Assembly (NCBI GenBank): GCA_018818835.1
Contig: JAHIRD010000079.1
Span: forward strand, 1-64,000
Origin: Pseudomonadota bacterium
Lineage (GTDB): Bacteria > Desulfobacterota > Desulfobacteria > Desulfobacterales > Desulfolunaceae
DNA length: 64,000 bases
Reading direction: 5' to 3'
Shown here: in pieces, positions 8,366 to 59,932 of the stretch
Position numbering within the stretch: position 1 is the stretch's first letter
Layout: each line of letters opens with the position of its first letter
Made by a program: the position numbers and the translations under genes
Notes under the pieces: generated by a model
The model's input: only the letters and a program-made list of their open reading frames with translations
The model's database searches: none
Told to the model about the DNA's origin: nothing

Positions 8366-8438
8366 AAAAAAGCTGGCCAGCCTGAATTTTATTCATATTT
8401 CCGGTCTCAGATACCCTGACCCAAACAAAGGCCCCGGG

Positions 8439-11150
8439 ATGGAAAAAATCATATTCACCTATGACCCTGATCTCACCGAAAAACACGGCCACTTCACCGT
8501 GATTCTTACACCGGCTGTAAAATCAGGTCAAAACTGGCTGAAAAGCAAAGGCTCCAAAATCTTTTTTGTCCGGGATCTAAGCCATGTTGCGACCCGTGTC
8601 CCTGACAGGGATCTGTTCAAAACCGCCCTTGAAAGTGAAATGGATATCCGTAAAACCGAAGGGCGTTTTTTCTCTCAAAATGAAGAATTCACCCGTCTTC
8701 GCATTGCCAATCGCCATGTTTTCACGTTCATAACAGGCTGCCAGAAAAAAAGGATTCTGGTTTATCCGGATGGGATCTGCACACGGTTTCGCATACATAA
8801 AGACTGCCTTCCGGAGATACGGGTCCTCAAAGACCAGCTGAACCTTTTTATCGAGGGGCAGTCCTTTTCCGGACAGGAACTCCTCTTGACTGCCATGCCG
8901 CTGACTCTGATCCATTCGGACACCATTGTCCAGCTGGCAATTGGGGTGACCCACAGGTTTTTGAAAGGGATTCCGATAAACAGAAAAACATCGGAAAAGG
9001 AACGAAACAATCTCTTGTTGGAATACGCCCGGCACCCGGACAAACTTACCCTAGGCAGCACCGGGAAAAACCTTAAAAAAATACTCAAAAACATTATGCC
9101 CAAAGCCATTCTTGATTTTGGAGAGACCCTTAAAAAAGCACAGCTTTTTTTTATCTATGAGGACGTACAGATCAAGGACACCGATTTGCGCAACCCGGTT
9201 TACGACCTTAAACAGAATCTTGAAATACATAGGAATATTCTGCAGGAAACCAAAATCTGCGACCTCCTTTCCTCCCTTGGTTTTTTTTCAAGGCCCGATG
9301 AGTCCTTCAACTGGTTTTTATCCTTGCAATCCATTGAGACCGTTCTCCCTGTCCTGGGCCAGGAAGGAATCACTGTTCGTCTTAACAACCGTGCCTTCAG
9401 TCAAACGGTGGCAGTCACATGGAAAATCGCATCGGACCCCGCGCATATTTGTGTCGGAGGTCGTGTGATTTCCGGTGATTTTGAGATGGGAATCGGACCG
9501 TTGTGCCATGCATTTCGGGAAAACCAGTCCTGGTTTAAACGGCCTGACGGGTCCTACGGCCTTATGGGTGAAGAACTAAAAAAACTTTTTTCCCAATTGG
9601 CCCAACACGGAAAGTTCAAGGGGGGTGACATTACCTTTAATCGGTCTGATTTCTCTTATGTCGGCTCTCTTTTTGAGGCCTATGATGATCTTGAAACCGA
9701 TCAGGGATACAAGGATCTGTACACCTTTGCAAAACAGTATGAAGGCATACGGAGATACACGGTGCCCGAAGCCCTGACCCAGGTTTTGCGGCCATACCAG
9801 GTTCTTGGATTCAACTGGTTGAGGACCCTGCGAGACCTTGGATTGAATGGAATCCTCGCCGATGATATGGGCCTGGGTAAAAGCCTCCAGGTCCTGTGCC
9901 TGATCAAAAGCCTCAAAGGGGAAAGCCGGCTTGGGGGCCCAGTCCTTCTTGTTGCCCCTAAAACTCTGATATTCAACTGGGAACTCGAAATCAAAAAATT
10001 CTCTCCCGACCTTTCATACTATGTATTTGCAGGGACAGGACGGTCCAGGGATCCTGATTTTTTAAACGAACATGAAATCATCCTCAGTTCATATGGGCTT
10101 TTAAGAACGGAGATCACCCTTTTTTGCAGCATCAACTGGGACTCTGTGATCCTCGATGAAGCCCATGCCATTAAAAATCCCTTTGCCCTGGTCTCACGGG
10201 CCGTCAAAAAAATCCCCTGCAAAACACGACTGACCATCACCGGAACCCCGGTTGAAAATTCCCCCTCGGACCTGTGGAGTCAGTTTGATTTTCTCATGCC
10301 GGGTTTTTTACATGGCCTGAAATCGTTCAATGCCACATATGGGACCGACACAAAAAAGCTGACCGAACTTCGCATAAAGACAAAACCCTATATTCTCAGA
10401 CGATTAAAATCACAAGTCCTTGCCGAACTCCCCCCCAAAACAGACATGACCATCTTCTGTGATTTCACAAAGGATCAATTAGCCGTCTACGAAGAAGCCC
10501 TTATTTCAGCACGCCGTGATATGGCTGACATGCAAGGAAAATCATCCTTCAAAATGCTCAGTCTGATATTGAGATTGCGACTGATAGCCTGTCATCCGGA
10601 CCTTGCCGTGAAAAAAGGGCATCGGTCTTTTGACAGCGGGAAGCTTCAAGCCGTGCTTCACTCAGCCATGGAAATCCTGGCCGAAGGCCATAAAATACTC
10701 ATATTCTCGCAGTTTACCCGGCATTTGAAACTGGTTGAAACACAGTTCAGACGGCAGAAAATCGCCACCTTTTACCTTGATGGAAAAACACCTGACAGAG
10801 GGAAGGTGGTCCAGGCATTCCAAGGACATAGAGGCCCCTGCCCTTTTTTCATATCCCTTAAAACCGGGGGCACCGGGCTAAATCTGAGTGAAGCCAATTA
10901 TGTATTCCTCCTTGATCCCTGGTGGAATCCTGCTGTTGAGAACCAGGCCATTGACCGTTGCCACCGGATGGGACAGAAACAGGCCGTCACCGTGTACCGA
11001 TTTATCACCAAAGGGTCCATTGAAGAAAAAGTCAATGCCCTGAAACAGGTCAAAAAAAATATCGAAGAAACCCTGATCAATGAATCGATTCCCACCATGC
11101 TTCCATATGATGCTGAAACGCTTACAACCATACTTATGTCGGATAACTGA
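8439..11150 (+). CDS. SNF2-family DEAD/DEAH ATPase
   Basis: A 903-residue Swi2/Snf2-type ATPase. The N-terminal ~430 residues are an uncharacterised helicase-associated region. The ATPase core starts near residue 450: motif I 'ADDMGLGKS' (about 473-481), 'LLVAPKTLIFNW' (Ia), 'DEAHAIKN' (motif II, about 572), 'TGTPVENS' (III). The C-terminal RecA lobe has 'ILIFSQFTRHL', 'KTGGTGLNLSEA' and 'AIDRCHRMGQ' (motif VI). Bacterial proteins of this layout (HepA/RapA-like or YqhH-like) translocate on duplex DNA and act in transcription recycling or repair; which applies here cannot be decided. All motifs are intact. No SWIM zinc motif was noticed in the N-terminus. Confidence 0.9.
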   Translation: MEKIIFTYDPDLTEKHGHFTVILTPAVKSGQNWLKSKGSKIFFVRDLSHVATRVPDRDLFKTALESEMDIRKTEGRFFSQNEEFTRLRIANRHVFTFITGCQKKRILVYPDGICTRFRIHKDCLPEIRVLKDQLNLFIEGQSFSGQELLLTAMPLTLIHSDTIVQLAIGVTHRFLKGIPINRKTSEKERNNLLLEYARHPDKLTLGSTGKNLKKILKNIMPKAILDFGETLKKAQLFFIYEDVQIKDTDLRNPVYDLKQNLEIHRNILQETKICDLLSSLGFFSRPDESFNWFLSLQSIETVLPVLGQEGITVRLNNRAFSQTVAVTWKIASDPAHICVGGRVISGDFEMGIGPLCHAFRENQSWFKRPDGSYGLMGEELKKLFSQLAQHGKFKGGDITFNRSDFSYVGSLFEAYDDLETDQGYKDLYTFAKQYEGIRRYTVPEALTQVLRPYQVLGFNWLRTLRDLGLNGILADDMGLGKSLQVLCLIKSLKGESRLGGPVLLVAPKTLIFNWELEIKKFSPDLSYYVFAGTGRSRDPDFLNEHEIILSSYGLLRTEITLFCSINWDSVILDEAHAIKNPFALVSRAVKKIPCKTRLTITGTPVENSPSDLWSQFDFLMPGFLHGLKSFNATYGTDTKKLTELRIKTKPYILRRLKSQVLAELPPKTDMTIFCDFTKDQLAVYEEALISARRDMADMQGKSSFKMLSLILRLRLIACHPDLAVKKGHRSFDSGKLQAVLHSAMEILAEGHKILIFSQFTRHLKLVETQFRRQKIATFYLDGKTPDRGKVVQAFQGHRGPCPFFISLKTGGTGLNLSEANYVFLLDPWWNPAVENQAIDRCHRMGQKQAVTVYRFITKGSIEEKVNALKQVKKNIEETLINESIPTMLPYDAETLTTILMSDN

Positions 11151-11691
11151 TACCATTGTTACTCACCAATACTTATCATCTTCTCATTGTTGTTAACTTT
11201 TCTAACCAGCACCCGTTCGCTGCACTCACTGAAGACAGAGCGACAAAGCCACCACCAAAAAACATGTCTCTCACGGAGGCACAAAGAACACAGAGAAGGG
11301 CTAAAAGGGGATAATAGTTTTTTCTTTGTGATCTTTGTGCCTCTGTGAGAAAAATTTGTGAGCATCCCCCCACAGTTAAAACATACTCGTGCTCAATTTA
11401 TAGCCTATGGACACGAAGAGCACGAAGAAATTGCCTAAATCATCGGTGATTCGAGTCAGCCTGCTGTAGATGAAATCGTGACATCATAGCTATTTTATTC
11501 GGAAAAAAATGAGGGCGAAAGGCGAATCGAGAGAGAATAAAATGATAAAAACTGTCGGCTATCAAGTCAATAAATGCTTATTATTCAAGATAGTTGATCG
11601 TGGTCAGAACTGACAGATTGCACTTTTTAGCGAAAATGCCGGGGCAATCTCTATGTGAATTTTATTCTAAAAATTGGCCAATAATCCGATC
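11151..11691. other. Non-coding gap with dispersed repeats
   Basis: No gene is supported. The first ~280 bases hold dispersed repeat words: 'cacccgttcgctgcactcac' at about 11209, a stretch of 'cacggaggcacaaagaacac' facing its complement 'tttgtgcctctgtgag' (about 11270-11355), and 'gacacgaagagcacgaagaa' at about 11410. Further on, GAATAAAAT (11535-11543) and its complement (11492-11500) form a loose hairpin. The end of the gap is the dapL promoter. Confidence 0.7.
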
Positions 11692-11727
11692 TATATTCTT
11701 GACACAAAAGGCATTGTCAATTATTAT
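11692..11727 (+). promoter_or_regulatory. dapL sigma-70 promoter with shared lysine-gene element
   Basis: TTGACA at 11699-11704 and TATTAT at 11722-11727 are 17 bases apart, a consensus sigma-70 layout, giving a predicted start near 11734 and a ~110-base leader. Bases 11692-11708 (TATATTC-TTGACA-CAAA) are identical to 58092-58108 in front of the lrp-lysA pair, at the same place relative to the -35 box. The match extends 11 bases beyond TTGACA itself. Confidence 0.75.
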
Positions 11728-11843
11728 TTCCCGAACAAACAAAATGAGAGAATATTTAATACTGTTTCAGTTCCTCTCTTGTTCATTTTCTGACAAAGAG
11801 CCTTAAAACGGCTTGTATACGGCAAACCAAGGAGGTACCTGCC

Positions 11844-13064
11844 ATGATCACGATCAATGACAATTATCTAAAACTCAAAGCATCCTATCTGTTTTCCGAC
11901 ATCGCCAAACGGGTTGGGGCTTTCCAGAAAAGCAACCCGGACAGGGAAGTCATCAAACTGGGTATCGGCGATGTGACCCGAGCGCTTCCCCAGGCCTGCG
12001 TCGCTGCCTTTCACAAGGGCGTGGATGACATGGCAACGGAAAAGACATTCCGGGGCTACGGACCGGAACAGGGCTATGATTTCTTACGTGAAGCCATTGC
12101 CAAAAATGATTATCAAAGCCGGGGGGCTGACATTGAAGCCGATGAGATCTTCATCAGTGACGGTGCCAAATGCGATACCGGAAACATCCAGGAAATATTT
12201 TCCACGGACATCGCCATTGCCATTCCCGATCCAGTTTATCCAGTCTACCTGGACACCAACGTGATGGCCGGGCGGACTGGGGATTTTAAAGACGGAAAAT
12301 ACCAGGGCATTCATTACCTTTCCTGCACCCGGGCAAACAACTTTGTCCCGGATCTCCCCAACCAGCCCGTGGACCTGATCTACCTGTGTTTTCCCAACAA
12401 TCCCACAGGGACAACGATCACCCGTGAGGCCCTTAAGACCTGGGTGGATTTTGCAAAAAAAGAAAAGGCCCTGATTTTATACGACGCAGCTTACGAGGCA
12501 TTTATCACCGATGACACCCTGCCCCGTTCCATCTTTGAAATCGAGGGGGCCAGGGATGTGGCCATTGAATTTCGAAGTTTTTCAAAAACAGCAGGATTCA
12601 CCGGAACCCGGTGTGCCTTTACCGTGGTCCCCAAATCCCTGATGGCCTTTGACAAAACAGGGGGAAAACATTCCATCCACAGCCTCTGGAACCGAAGACA
12701 CACCACCAAATTCAATGGGGTGTCCTATCCGGTTCAAAGGGCCGCAGAAGCGGTTTACAGTGTGGATGGTAAAAAACAGGTTCGGGAGCTGATTGAGTAC
12801 TACCTCACGAACGCGGCCCTGATCCGGAAAGAAATGGGTGCCCTGGGTTATGACCTGGTGGGAGGTGATAATTCTCCCTATATCTGGATTGATGGGAAAA
12901 GTGATTCCTGGGAATTCTTCGATCGATTGCTCAATCAAGCCGGTGTGGTCTGTACCCCAGGTGCCGGATTCGGGAAATGCGGCCAGGGATATATCCGAAT
13001 CAGCGCGTTCAACAGCTACGAAAATGTTGAGAAAGCATTAAAGCGCATAAAGCAAGTATTATAA
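11844..13064 (+). CDS. dapL: LL-diaminopimelate aminotransferase
   Basis: A 406-residue class I/II PLP aminotransferase. DapL converts tetrahydrodipicolinate directly to LL-diaminopimelate with glutamate as amino donor, bypassing the succinyl or acetyl branches of lysine and peptidoglycan synthesis. Evidence is the family-specific opening ('[19 protein letters not shown]'), '[12 protein letters not shown]', '[18 protein letters not shown]', 'FPNNPTGT', the PLP lysine in '[12 protein letters not shown]' (about K247) and the C-terminal arginine region 'GYIRISAF'. AAGGAGG lies 8 bases before the ATG. The gene stands alone between a consensus promoter and a strong terminator. lysA, the last enzyme of the same pathway, is at 58667 with a related promoter. 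Confidence 0.96.
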
Positions 13065-56631: not shown

Positions 56632-58014
56632 ATGCGCATTATTTTAAACAATTCCATCCGCTTGCCCCAGGTCTCCGACGAACTCGGGCAGCTGCTTAAA
56701 AAAAACCTGACTCTCCCCAATCCCATCTGGCTCGATAACGAACGGCAAGGGCGCTGGAACAAAGGGGTGCCCAGATACTTGGAATTTTACAGGGAGAATG
56801 ACGATTCCCTCGAAATCCCCAGGGGATACATGCGACCATTGATAAACATCCTTGGAGGCCTGAACATTCATTTTGACATGGATGATCAACGACGAATGCT
56901 TCCTGAAACTCAATTTTGCTTCAAGGGTGACCTGAAATCCTTTCAAAAAAAAGCCGTGGAACAGGTCCTTAAAAAACATTTTGCCGTACTCACTGCCCCC
57001 ACGGGTTCCGGAAAAACCGTTATGATGCTTGCAATCATCGCACAACGCAAGCAGCCCACCCTTATCGTCGTCCACACCCGCGATCTTGCGACCCAGTGGA
57101 TCAACCGCATTGGTCAGTTTTTAGGTCTTCCCGAAAAAGAAGTGGGTTTTATCGGATCGGGGAAATTCTCCTTGGGCAAACACATCACGGTGGCCATGAT
57201 CCAGTCCCTTTATAAACGCATCCCGGACATCGTCCCCCATGTAGGGCATCTTGTGGTGGATGAATGCCATAGAACCCCCAGCCGGACATTTTACGAAGGG
57301 GTAAGGGTGTTTGATTCCTATTACATGACCGGCCTCTCAGCAACGCCTTACAGACGGGATCGACTGTCCAGCTTGATTTTCTGGCACTTGGGAGATCAAG
57401 CCTTTGAAGTGAACAAAAAGGATCTGGTTAACCGGGGTCATATCCTGCAGGCCGAAGTGATCCTCAGGCCCACGAGCTTTACGTCCCAAACCGATCCCAC
57501 ATATCACTACGGGAAACTCATGGCTGAGTTGATCGAAGATCAGGAACGAAACGAGCTTATCGCCTCGGATGTGGCCCATGAATCAAAAAACAAACATGGT
57601 GTCTGCCTGGTTCTGTCTGACCGAAAAAACCACTGCCGGGCCATTGAGCATCTCTTAAAATCCCGGCACGGTTTGGACCCCGTCCTTCTGACCGGAGATC
57701 TAAAAGCGGATGAGAGACATAGCATCATGGAACGTCTTGACCGTCAGGAAATCAGCATTCTCATCGCCACAAGCCAACTTCTTGGGGAAGGCTTTGACTC
57801 CAAACAGCTGTCCAGTCTTTTCCTGATCTACCCCATACGATTCTCAGGACGCCTACTTCAGTATCTCGGTAGGATTCTCAGGCCTGGCAACGATAAAAAA
57901 GCCAGGGTTTTTGATTATGTGGATGCGAATATCGGTGTTCTCGAAGCTGCCGCCAATGCACGCCAACAGGTCTACCACCAGGACGGGAGCGGTCCTGAGC
58001 CATGCCTGGCCTGA
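56632..58014 (+). CDS. XPB/ResIII-like DEAD/DEAH helicase
   Basis: A 460-residue superfamily 2 helicase. After an N-terminal ~95-residue region, the core has the Q-like stretch 'LKSFQKKAVEQVL', Walker A 'APTGSGKTVMML' (about 122), 'VDECHRTPS' (motif II, DECH), 'LSATPYRRD' (III), 'CLVLSDRKNHC' (IV), 'LIATSQLLGEGFDSKQL' (V) and 'QYLGRILRPG' (VI). Similar stand-alone bacterial proteins are annotated as XPB-like or type III restriction-like helicases; no methylase or nuclease gene is adjacent, so a restriction role is not supported. GGAG precedes the ATG. It is followed at 85 bases by the lrp promoter. Confidence 0.88.
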   Translation: MRIILNNSIRLPQVSDELGQLLKKNLTLPNPIWLDNERQGRWNKGVPRYLEFYRENDDSLEIPRGYMRPLINILGGLNIHFDMDDQRRMLPETQFCFKGDLKSFQKKAVEQVLKKHFAVLTAPTGSGKTVMMLAIIAQRKQPTLIVVHTRDLATQWINRIGQFLGLPEKEVGFIGSGKFSLGKHITVAMIQSLYKRIPDIVPHVGHLVVDECHRTPSRTFYEGVRVFDSYYMTGLSATPYRRDRLSSLIFWHLGDQAFEVNKKDLVNRGHILQAEVILRPTSFTSQTDPTYHYGKLMAELIEDQERNELIASDVAHESKNKHGVCLVLSDRKNHCRAIEHLLKSRHGLDPVLLTGDLKADERHSIMERLDRQEISILIATSQLLGEGFDSKQLSSLFLIYPIRFSGRLLQYLGRILRPGNDKKARVFDYVDANIGVLEAAANARQQVYHQDGSGPEPCLA

Positions 58015-58091
58015 TCCATATCCCCATCCATACCTGGCCTGACCCATATCCCCAAAGAACTTTATTCTTTCTTTCCATCAAATAACCGCGT

Positions 58092-58127
58092 TATATTCTT
58101 GACACAAACCGTATCATGGATTATATT
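58092..58127 (+). promoter_or_regulatory. lrp-lysA sigma-70 promoter with shared lysine-gene element
   Basis: TTGACA (58099-58104) and TATATT (58122-58127) are exactly 17 bases apart. The predicted start is near 58134, which is downstream of the first possible ATG of the regulator (58116), so translation must begin at 58152. Bases 58092-58108 are identical to 11692-11708 in the dapL promoter. Confidence 0.82.
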
Positions 58128-58151
58128 TCCTTAAAAAAGGATAATAAGCGA

Positions 58152-58655
58152 ATGATTGACGAAACAAACTTAAAAATACTGAGCATCCTTCAACAAAAAG
58201 CCCGGGTCCCCAATGTGGAAGTGGCCCGACAGGTGAACATGGCCCCCTCCGCTGTCCTGGAGCGGATCAGAAAACTCGAGAAACAAGGCATCATTGACGG
58301 CTATGAGGTGATACTTAATCCCAAATGCCTCAACAGGGACATGGTGGCCTTTGTCCATGTATACCTTCATCATGCGTCCCAATCGGACCAAACAGGCCCC
58401 TTGCTTGCACGAATTCCTGAAATTCAGGAGATTCATTTCGTCACTGGCAAAGATTGTTTTCTGGTCAAAATCAGGGTTTCAGGAACAGCTGCCCTTGGGG
58501 AAACCTTGACCCAAAAAATTGGTGCCATTGCCGAGGTGAAACGAACGGAAACAACCATTGTGCTTAAAACATACAAGGAAAGTTCCCAGATCCCCCTGGA
58601 TTCAGTCAATATCAGTGAAATCATTGAAACCCCTCATCATGAACCAAAGGAGTAA
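58152..58655 (+). CDS. Lrp/AsnC-family regulator
   Basis: A 167-residue feast/famine regulator. The N-terminal HTH reads 'DETNLKILSILQQKARVPNV' then 'EVARQVNMAPSAVLERIRKL', ended by 'GIIDGYEVILNP'. The C-terminal RAM (ligand-binding, oligomerisation) domain includes 'MVAFVHVYLHHASQ', 'IQEIHFVTGKDCFLVKIRV' and 'KRTETTIVLKTYKE'. The start at 58152 is used because the promoter covers the upstream ATG. It sits 11 bases before lysA and is almost surely co-transcribed with it, so a role in lysine-dependent control of lysA, and perhaps of dapL, is a reasonable inference. The effector is not known. Confidence 0.9.
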   Translation: MIDETNLKILSILQQKARVPNVEVARQVNMAPSAVLERIRKLEKQGIIDGYEVILNPKCLNRDMVAFVHVYLHHASQSDQTGPLLARIPEIQEIHFVTGKDCFLVKIRVSGTAALGETLTQKIGAIAEVKRTETTIVLKTYKESSQIPLDSVNISEIIETPHHEPKE

Positions 58656-58666
58656 AACAAAAAACC

Positions 58667-59932
58667 ATGCCCTTATCTCACGACTATACGGACCGTTTGT
58701 CACCCATGCTCAAGGACATTGTCCGGCACTTTGGAACCCCCTTTCATATCTATGATGAAAAAGGAATTAAACATACCGGCGCACAATTGATCAAAGCCCT
58801 GGGGCAGATCGAAGGATTCAGGGAGTATTTTGCTGTCAAAGCCCTCCCCAATCCCGCGATTCTCTCTATCATGGGTCGCATGGGTTTCGGATTTGACTGC
58901 AGTTCCATCCCCGAGCTGGTCCTGTCGCGAAATACCGGGGCTCGGGGTGAGGATCTGATGTTCACATCCAACAACACAAGCCAGGAGGAATTTTTAGCGG
59001 CGGAACAGAACGGTGGTTGCATCCTGAACCTTGATGACATCACCCTGATTGACTCGGTGCCCACCATGCCGGAACTTATCTGTTTCAGGTACAACCCCGG
59101 TCCACGACGAACAGGCAACGAAATCATCGGAAACCCCGTGGAAGCCAAATACGGCGTGAGTTATGAACAGCTGACGGACGCATACAAAAAAGCCAAAAAA
59201 AGAGGGGCAAAACGTTTCGGCATGCACACCATGCTGGCGTCCAATGAACGAAACTACAGCTACATGGTTGAAACCACCCGAATGATCCTTGACATGGTCG
59301 CCCAGGTCTCGGCCGAACTTGACATCCGTTTTGAGTTTGTCAACATCGGCGGTGGGCTGGGTATTCCATACAAACCCGAAGACAACGCCCTGGACCTGGT
59401 GGCCATGGGCTCTGAAATTACTGAACTTTTCACATCTTTTAAGCAAAATAACGGATACGCACCCCGGCTTTATCTCGAAAGTGGGCGTTATATGACGGGA
59501 CCCCACGGGGCTCTGGTGGTCTCGGCCATCAACCGTAAAGACATATACAGGTCCTATATCGGCGTTGATGCCTGTATGTCGTCCTTGATGAGACCCGGCA
59601 TATACGGTGCCTATCATCATATCACCGTTCACGGGAAAGAAAACGCACCCGCCAATACGGTGGTGGACGTGGTGGGCTCCCTATGCGAAAACAATGACAA
59701 ATTCGCGATCCAGCGTTCATTGCCCGTTATTGAAAAAGGTGATCTTCTCCTGATACACGATACCGGTGCCCACGGACATGCCATGGGATTCAACTACAAT
59801 GCGAAAATGAGGCCCAAGGAGCTATTACTGAGGGAAAACGGCAAGGTGGAGCTGATCCGTCGCGAGGAAACCATGGAAGACTATTTCAGGACCCTGTTGT
59901 TTGAGCCTGATATTTTTCAACCAACAAAATAA
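58667..59932 (+). CDS. lysA: Diaminopimelate decarboxylase
   Basis: A 421-residue fold-type III PLP decarboxylase. It catalyses meso-diaminopimelate to L-lysine, the last step of lysine synthesis. The PLP lysine is K58 in 'YFAVKALPNP'; 'GFDCSSIPELVLSRNTGA', the glycine loop 'VNIGGGLGIPY', 'LYLESGRYMTGPHGALV' and the active-site Cys/Asp in 'VVGSLCENNDKF' are all seen. The last motif (C-E-x-x-D) distinguishes DAP decarboxylase from many arginine or ornithine enzymes, though the protein is of a divergent subgroup. It works in the same pathway as DapL at 11844. The ATG stands 12 bases after AAAGGAG, a wide spacing. Confidence 0.88.
   Translation: MPLSHDYTDRLSPMLKDIVRHFGTPFHIYDEKGIKHTGAQLIKALGQIEGFREYFAVKALPNPAILSIMGRMGFGFDCSSIPELVLSRNTGARGEDLMFTSNNTSQEEFLAAEQNGGCILNLDDITLIDSVPTMPELICFRYNPGPRRTGNEIIGNPVEAKYGVSYEQLTDAYKKAKKRGAKRFGMHTMLASNERNYSYMVETTRMILDMVAQVSAELDIRFEFVNIGGGLGIPYKPEDNALDLVAMGSEITELFTSFKQNNGYAPRLYLESGRYMTGPHGALVVSAINRKDIYRSYIGVDACMSSLMRPGIYGAYHHITVHGKENAPANTVVDVVGSLCENNDKFAIQRSLPVIEKGDLLLIHDTGAHGHAMGFNYNAKMRPKELLLRENGKVELIRREETMEDYFRTLLFEPDIFQPTK

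Follow-up and report, generated by a model that had tools for sequence, protein, structure and literature searches.

The Lrp/AsnC-family protein encoded at 58152-58655 of the window, as the whole 64-kb stretch of DNA analysed is called here, is probably a local, autoregulated repressor of lrp-lysA and of dapL that acts through palindromes phased at 31 bp, with lysine as the likeliest co-effector. Each of the two promoters was found to carry three sites of the GAAT-N3-ATTC type in exact 31-bp register, such that the middle site adjoins the -35 box and the third lies over the -10 box.

Results

Genes and the Lrp protein

The genes concerned are:

11844..13064, + strand: dapL, LL-diaminopimelate aminotransferase (TIGR03542, 598.7 bits against a cut-off of 364.7)
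58152..58655, + strand: lrp, Lrp/AsnC-family regulator of 167 aa (Pfam PF13412, PF13404 and PF01037, AsnC_trans_reg)
58667..59932, + strand: lysA, diaminopimelate decarboxylase (TIGR01048, 283.2 bits, just under the cut-off of 297.9)

An earlier sequence-only reading of this DNA had held that two promoters 46 kb apart both lead to lysine-synthesis genes, and the assignments of dapL and lysA bear this out, the latter by a score slightly below its model's cut-off; lysA at 58667-59932 is the best lysA match in this genome. The start of lrp was placed at 58152, from where its orthologs align, while the mechanically listed start at 58116 falls inside the promoter. The predicted protein has an N-terminal winged helix-turn-helix and a C-terminal RAM ligand domain, all three Pfam families being above their gathering scores, and the columns invariant in 26 Lrp orthologs lie mostly within the helix-turn-helix part. 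It reached the score neither of the equivalog for the E. coli-type global Lrp (NF008370, 96 bits against 233) nor of that for LysM (NF040947, 59.9 bits against 180). Among its solved relatives E. coli Lrp was the best match (2gqq, 1.6e-36) and FL11 the second.

A gene for a RadD/XPB-like helicase (56632-58014) is located directly upstream of lrp. Such a gene was also found beside lrp in nine others of the 30 loci with the best Lrp matches, and on the same strand in six of the best 80 of 280 loci, five of which duplicate loci of the first set (see below for both sets).

A shared 17-mer and what it is part of

The sequence TATATTCTTGACACAAA occurs at 11692-11708 and at 58092-58108, each copy spanning the -35 box of a promoter in which TTGACA is followed, after 17 nt, by TATTAT (dapL) or TATATT (lrp-lysA). 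The identity of the two copies, exact at these positions, and their location over the -35 box of sigma-70 promoters were both correctly recognised in the sequence-only reading. These are the only exact copies in the genome, which comprises 6.75 Mb in 334 contigs. Allowing mismatches, there was no copy with one, one copy with two and 43 copies with three, as compared with 28 matches in total at up to three mismatches for the reversed control pattern. Within the window two matches were present at up to three mismatches against a shuffle mean of 0.20, and at least two were obtained in 1 of 100 shuffles, in agreement with the earlier view that the match is unlikely to be due to chance.

Read against the palindrome, the 17-mer begins with WWW and the right half-site ATTC, continues through the -35 box and ends with four further bases. 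As a shared element it is real, with its two exact genomic copies, but the functional unit is best read as the palindrome GAAT-N3-ATTC repeated at 31-bp spacing, of which the 17-mer would comprise the right half of one site together with the -35 box. As each middle site is off-consensus in its left half, the right half alone was noticeable in the initial reading, and each promoter has two further sites beyond the one noticed then.

Operator arrays in the window

The sites were scored with a symmetric matrix derived from 27 lrp promoters of relatives, from which this genome (L031) and two misaligned loci (L044 and L051) had been left out. The candidate operator sites, for which no strand is given, and the promoter elements are as follows:

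11657..11667, unstranded: candidate upstream operator site of dapL, a perfect match to the consensus, GAATTTTATTC; shares the highest 11-mer score of the window with 8384
11688..11698, unstranded: candidate middle operator site of dapL, GATCTATATTC, adjoining the -35 box, 31 bp from the first; score 7.1
11699..11704, + strand: dapL -35 box TTGACA, with the -10 box 11/12 consensus matches
11719..11729, unstranded: candidate third operator site of dapL, weak, AATTATTATTT, in 31-bp register; score 0.6 alone
11722-11727: dapL -10 box TATTAT, under the third site at 11719
58057..58067, unstranded: candidate upstream operator site of lrp-lysA, GAACTTTATTC; score 13.7, third-best 11-mer of the window
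58088..58098, unstranded: candidate middle operator site of lrp-lysA, GCGTTATATTC, adjoining the -35 box, in 31-bp register; score 6.8
58099..58104, + strand: lrp-lysA -35 box TTGACA (promoter reading)
58119..58129, unstranded: candidate third operator site of lrp-lysA, covering the -10 box, GATTATATTTC, in 31-bp register; score 5.6
58122-58127: lrp-lysA -10 box TATATT, under the third site at 58119

The three best 11-mers of the window were those at 11657, 8384 (tied) and 58057, although the matrix had been trained without this genome, and the right half of the dapL middle site at 11688 falls within the 17-mer. The middle and third sites of both promoters are degenerate in this genome. The best four 31-bp pairs of the window all came from the two promoters, namely 11657/11688 (22.9), 58057/58088 (20.5), 58088/58119 (12.4) and the pair with the dapL third site (7.7), the next pair scoring 6.6; no array in the window is stronger than that of dapL. 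Genome-wide, the paired palindrome with up to three mismatches was detected in four places, two of them these promoters, and the reversed control in one. In each of the other seven family genomes the best palindrome pair sits at the lrp promoter.

Two other features of the window were recorded. A second perfect GAATTTTATTC is present at 8384-8394, just upstream of a gene for an SNF2-type helicase (8439-11150); it is without a partner 31 bp to either side, the one at 62 bp being weak (6.0). In the dapL promoter (11699-11720) the spacer contains TGTCAA ten bases after TTGACA, an additional inverted repeat that is absent from the lrp promoter.

A lysine riboswitch (L-box) in the leaders, acting in place of a protein, is hardly credible as the basis of control. 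The dapL leader measures about 110 nt; against this, RF00168 matched none of eight family genomes while matching 4 of 14 control genomes, the window had no Rfam match at gathering score, and leader folding was unremarkable (z-score -0.46), which excludes a riboswitch of the RF00168 type in these eight genomes.

Conservation at the lrp promoters of relatives

Sites, spacing, conservation and gene linkage were computed for two sets of loci. The search for Lrp covered 77 genomes, 45 of which gave some match, and the best 30 matches, including that of this genome, made up the first set. In all of these 30 loci of 45 the Lrp gene is followed on the same strand by lysA (21) or dapL (9), and only in L048 is the gene after Lrp about 500 nt away. 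The lrp promoters of this set share GAAT-WWW-ATTC just before TTGACA, and, at a distance of 31 bp downstream, a weaker copy covering the -10 box.

The held-out set was made from the best 80 of 280 relatives in a scan of named genomes by removing 17 duplicates of training genomes and L186, for which there was no upstream sequence, leaving 62 loci. A score of at least 12 within 200 nt or less upstream of lrp was reached in 50 of these 62, while first-order Markov resampling (50 rounds) yielded a mean of 0.66 and a maximum of 4; the lrp promoter scored below 12 in the other 12, and in five of the first 30 loci. When partners scoring at least 5 were sought around the 50 anchored promoters of this set, drawn from the best 80 of 280, the spacing was 31 bp in 21, 30 bp in four and 44 bp in one, with none at 20-29 or 32-43 bp. 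Where no TTGA follows the site (21 of 56 held-out sites from the same best 80 of 280), A precedes it in 13 and T follows it in 17 of the 21, giving AGAAT-WWW-ATTCT. A longer E. coli Lrp consensus exists and was used as a comparison motif; with up to two mismatches it was present in 38 of the 62 held-out promoters (best 80 of 280) against about 4.6 in resampled sequence, and the six sites of the window fitted it poorly, even the better strand of each having 3 to 6 mismatches.

Counting loci with at least 300 nt downstream, with L209 and L217 dropped, the next gene of the lysA/dapL kind was lysA in 47, dapL in 13 and neither in one of 61 held-out loci from the best 80 of 280, the distance from the Lrp match having a median of 30 nt and a maximum of 425 nt. 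A regulator linked to lysine genes and common sites at the target promoters, which together define a local regulon, were thus both found. The single locus with neither gene (L237) encodes an Lrp homolog with 52 percent identity in a Thermoanaerobaculum-labelled MAG and is also without a site. The held-out loci of the best 80 of 280 are labelled mainly Desulfobacterales and Desulfobulbales, including Desulfoluna limicola, Desulfosarcina widdelii and Desulfobulbus alkaliphilus, and a few assemblies bear other labels, such as Phycisphaerae, Bacteroidetes and Acidobacteria (L164, L191 and L209).

These data bear on whether the arrays could reflect chance or the general likeness of two strong sigma-70 promoters, which is very improbable. 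TTGACA with AT-rich flanks raises the odds of a fortuitous match, as does the post hoc choice of the 17-mer. However, the matrix that placed both arrays on top in the window owed nothing to this genome. Moreover, the genome holds seven places fitting TTCTTGACA-N17-TAWWWT, and the five besides dapL and lrp-lysA score below 0 at the position adjoining the -35 box, although in L347, one of the five, an 11-mer resembling a site (score 11.9) lies 31 bp downstream, over its -10 box. With the 31-bp spacing as sharp as it is in held-out loci from the best 80 of 280, chance is largely refuted by the held-out test.

Sites at separate dapL genes

In seven of eight family genomes the separate dapL gene has a site scoring about 14.5 or more in its upstream 300 nt. 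The exception is the nearest sampled relative (G001), which has sites at lrp and none at dapL. The dapL site is GAACAATATTC in five family genomes and, where the promoter was recognised, this lies between the -35 and -10 boxes and adjoins the latter (L069 and L070); in L065 the site is GAATATTATTC, likewise between the two boxes. The dapL site was also found in three genomes of other families (G009, G015 and G053).

The different placement of the site in these three loci of genus g3 is relevant to the history of the two promoters. It is unlikely, if conceivable, that one of them is a copy of the other left over from the break-up of an lrp-dapL-lysA operon, in which case their identity would stem from descent and not from selective maintenance. 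In-register agreement of the two promoters extends to 57 of 100 positions, and of the 70 genomes of the order with Lrp, 18 have dapL immediately after lrp, as such an origin would have it; yet outside the sites and the -35 box the agreement is modest (8/20 and 8/14 in the linkers, 6/30 upstream, 11/20 downstream), and in g3 the site is elsewhere than here. Copying would in any case be compatible with a present function of the sites. Where dapL directly follows lrp, its co-regulation would be attained by a different route.

Whether the presence of Lrp predicts a site at a stand-alone dapL was examined in two samples. Among the first 27 such genes, those with the most similar dapL, a site was present within 300 nt in 10 of 14 genomes with Lrp and in 0 of 13 without. 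The wider sample consisted of 213 genomes of the order, with Lrp in 70 and this dapL in 128, scored over 400 nt and leaving out three Lrp-lacking genomes with dapL (G175, G145 and G172). Here a score of at least 12 was reached in 0 of 32 further Lrp-bearing genomes and in 5 of 48 genomes without detected Lrp, three of the latter scoring at least 14. Pooled, the counts were 10/46 with Lrp against 5/61 without at score 12 (Fisher p 0.054) and 10/46 against 3/61 at score 14 (p 0.014); counted by genus at score 12 they were 5/26 against 5/51 (p 0.29). The contrast of the first sample therefore cannot be extended across the order, and Lrp presence as a predictor of the stand-alone dapL site, strong in the first set, was not upheld in the wider one. 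Co-regulation of a separate dapL, judged from these predicted sites, is lineage-specific and is claimed for this family and a few genera.

The strong dapL sites in genomes without detected Lrp are those of G066 (L320), G074 (L340) and G045 (L341), whose completeness is 80, 75 and 90 percent; as these assemblies are incomplete, the Lrp gene may be absent from the assembly only. They are, with the two lower-scoring cases among the 48, what speaks for the use of the sites by a DNA-binding protein other than the neighbouring Lrp. This is improbable, since in most loci examined the sites are at the promoter of this very Lrp, whichever of lysA and dapL comes next, and their palindromic form matches that of Lrp sites.

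Size of the regulon

The sequence-only reading had spoken of a lysine regulon. The common arrays at dapL and lrp-lysA agree with that term, but no third convincing 31-bp array was found in the genome, and from the predicted sites the regulon looks very small, comprising two promoters. Two other genomic 31-bp pairs were recorded (C202 and C296). The perfect single site GAATWWWATTC occurs in 29 places in the genome, against 12 for the control. A wider regulon based on these was considered and rejected: besides the dapL site there are 28, of which 20 lie inside reading frames of at least 80 codons, and in no case does the position 31 bp to the left or to the right score above 0.

The dapA gene of this genome has no site, its best score being 6.3. 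Over 27 dapA loci from 21 genomes a score of at least 12 within 300 nt before the match was found in two, L133 in a genome without detected Lrp (G018) and L137 in G001, so dapA appears at most an occasional member of the regulon and not one in this genome. L137 has two near-consensus sites, at positions 2489 and 2507, 18 bp apart; with sites at dapA and none at dapL, G001 has perhaps swapped one target for another within the pathway. At least one further lysA-like match is present in each of the eight family genomes, and none of 12 fetched loci of these genes had an 11-mer scoring at least 12.

Discussion

The proposal of the sequence-only reading that the neighbouring Lrp controls dapL and lrp-lysA is well supported computationally by the phased palindromes, the sites at the lrp promoters of relatives and the linkage to lysA or dapL. 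We infer binding of the sites by Lrp, repression as its effect and lysine as the signal. Dimers of Lrp would bind the (A)GAAT-N3-ATTC(T) palindromes and, as the three sites follow one another at intervals of exactly 31 bp, or roughly three helical turns, neighbouring dimers would be placed on one face of the DNA. Adjacent dimers may then join, or wrap the DNA over the -35 and -10 boxes, and so exclude RNA polymerase, by which lrp-lysA and dapL, encoding late steps of lysine synthesis, would be shut off. The regulator being the first gene of its own operon, this would constitute an autorepressing loop. Lysine, the product of the pathway, would act as corepressor, which is the simplest reading in view of the neighbouring lysA and dapL and of archaeal LysM and FL11.

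It is rather unlikely that the same Lrp uses the same sites for activation, or responds to another ligand such as leucine, diaminopimelate or threonine. Archaeal Lrp proteins have varied amino-acid ligands and some of them activate (PMC2995911), but sites over or adjoining the -35 and -10 boxes favour repression over activation, and the occurrence of lysA or dapL next in 60 of 61 held-out loci (best 80 of 280) favours lysine.

The proposed repression by a lysine-responsive Lrp has partial parallels. Binding sites of Lrp/AsnC proteins have been described as imperfect palindromes of 13-17 bp with an AT-rich centre, two or three helical turns apart, and three dimers of Ss-LrpB wrap about 100 bp (PMC2995911); GAAT-WWW-ATTC at 31 bp is comparable to this description at the level of sequence. 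The E. coli Lrp consensus from ChIP-chip, CAG-N9-CTG with an A+T rich N9 (PMC6640053), fits AGAAT-N3-ATTCT here, whereas E. coli Lrp is global and leucine-responsive. LysM of Sulfolobus solfataricus is likewise a local regulator of lysine synthesis from the Lrp family with lysine as effector, but this archaeal protein targets lysWXJK and is a proposed activator (PMC2995911), unlike the predicted control here of lysA and dapL of the diaminopimelate route. FL11 (PH1519) of Pyrococcus horikoshii forms a lysine-bound octamer, lysine amplifies its repression and its targets include lysJKYZ (PMC2995911); about 200 regulated units are predicted for it, in contrast to the two promoters found here. LysX of Desulfovibrio (COG1378) is a predicted lysine regulator also encoded upstream of lysA, in another delta-proteobacterial group, but it belongs to a different family by its COG label and has a different box, GTGGTACTNNNNAGTACCAC, and so represents a parallel solution (PMC545781).

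LysX was proposed for two Desulfovibrio species in a 2004 comparative-genomics survey of delta-proteobacteria, which reports neither LysR nor L-box in the genomes studied and, in the portion of its text consulted, names no other lysine regulator (PMC545781). No description of an Lrp-type lysine regulator in this group was found in the open literature, subscription journals and RegPrecise being outside the scope of the search, so this is a probably previously undescribed case of Lrp-type local control of an amino-acid pathway. The whole has the look of a lysine switch of small size and not described before, for which a regulator of a familiar type is used. Beyond this genome, there is a reasonable case, if a less secure one, for a subfamily of lysine-specific Lrp proteins, widespread among the Desulfobacterales and the Desulfobulbales, whose members would be devoted to autorepression of lrp-lysA or of lrp-dapL-lysA by way of 31-bp operators that abut or enclose the -35 and -10 boxes, with the separate dapL captured in some lineages including this one. 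For many Desulfobacterales and Desulfobulbales a different protein family is thereby offered as the lysine regulator. The simple site rule, GAAT-N3-ATTC at 31 bp, may serve as an aid to annotation, and these promoters would provide a natural setting for deducing the spacing rule of Lrp dimers from sequence.
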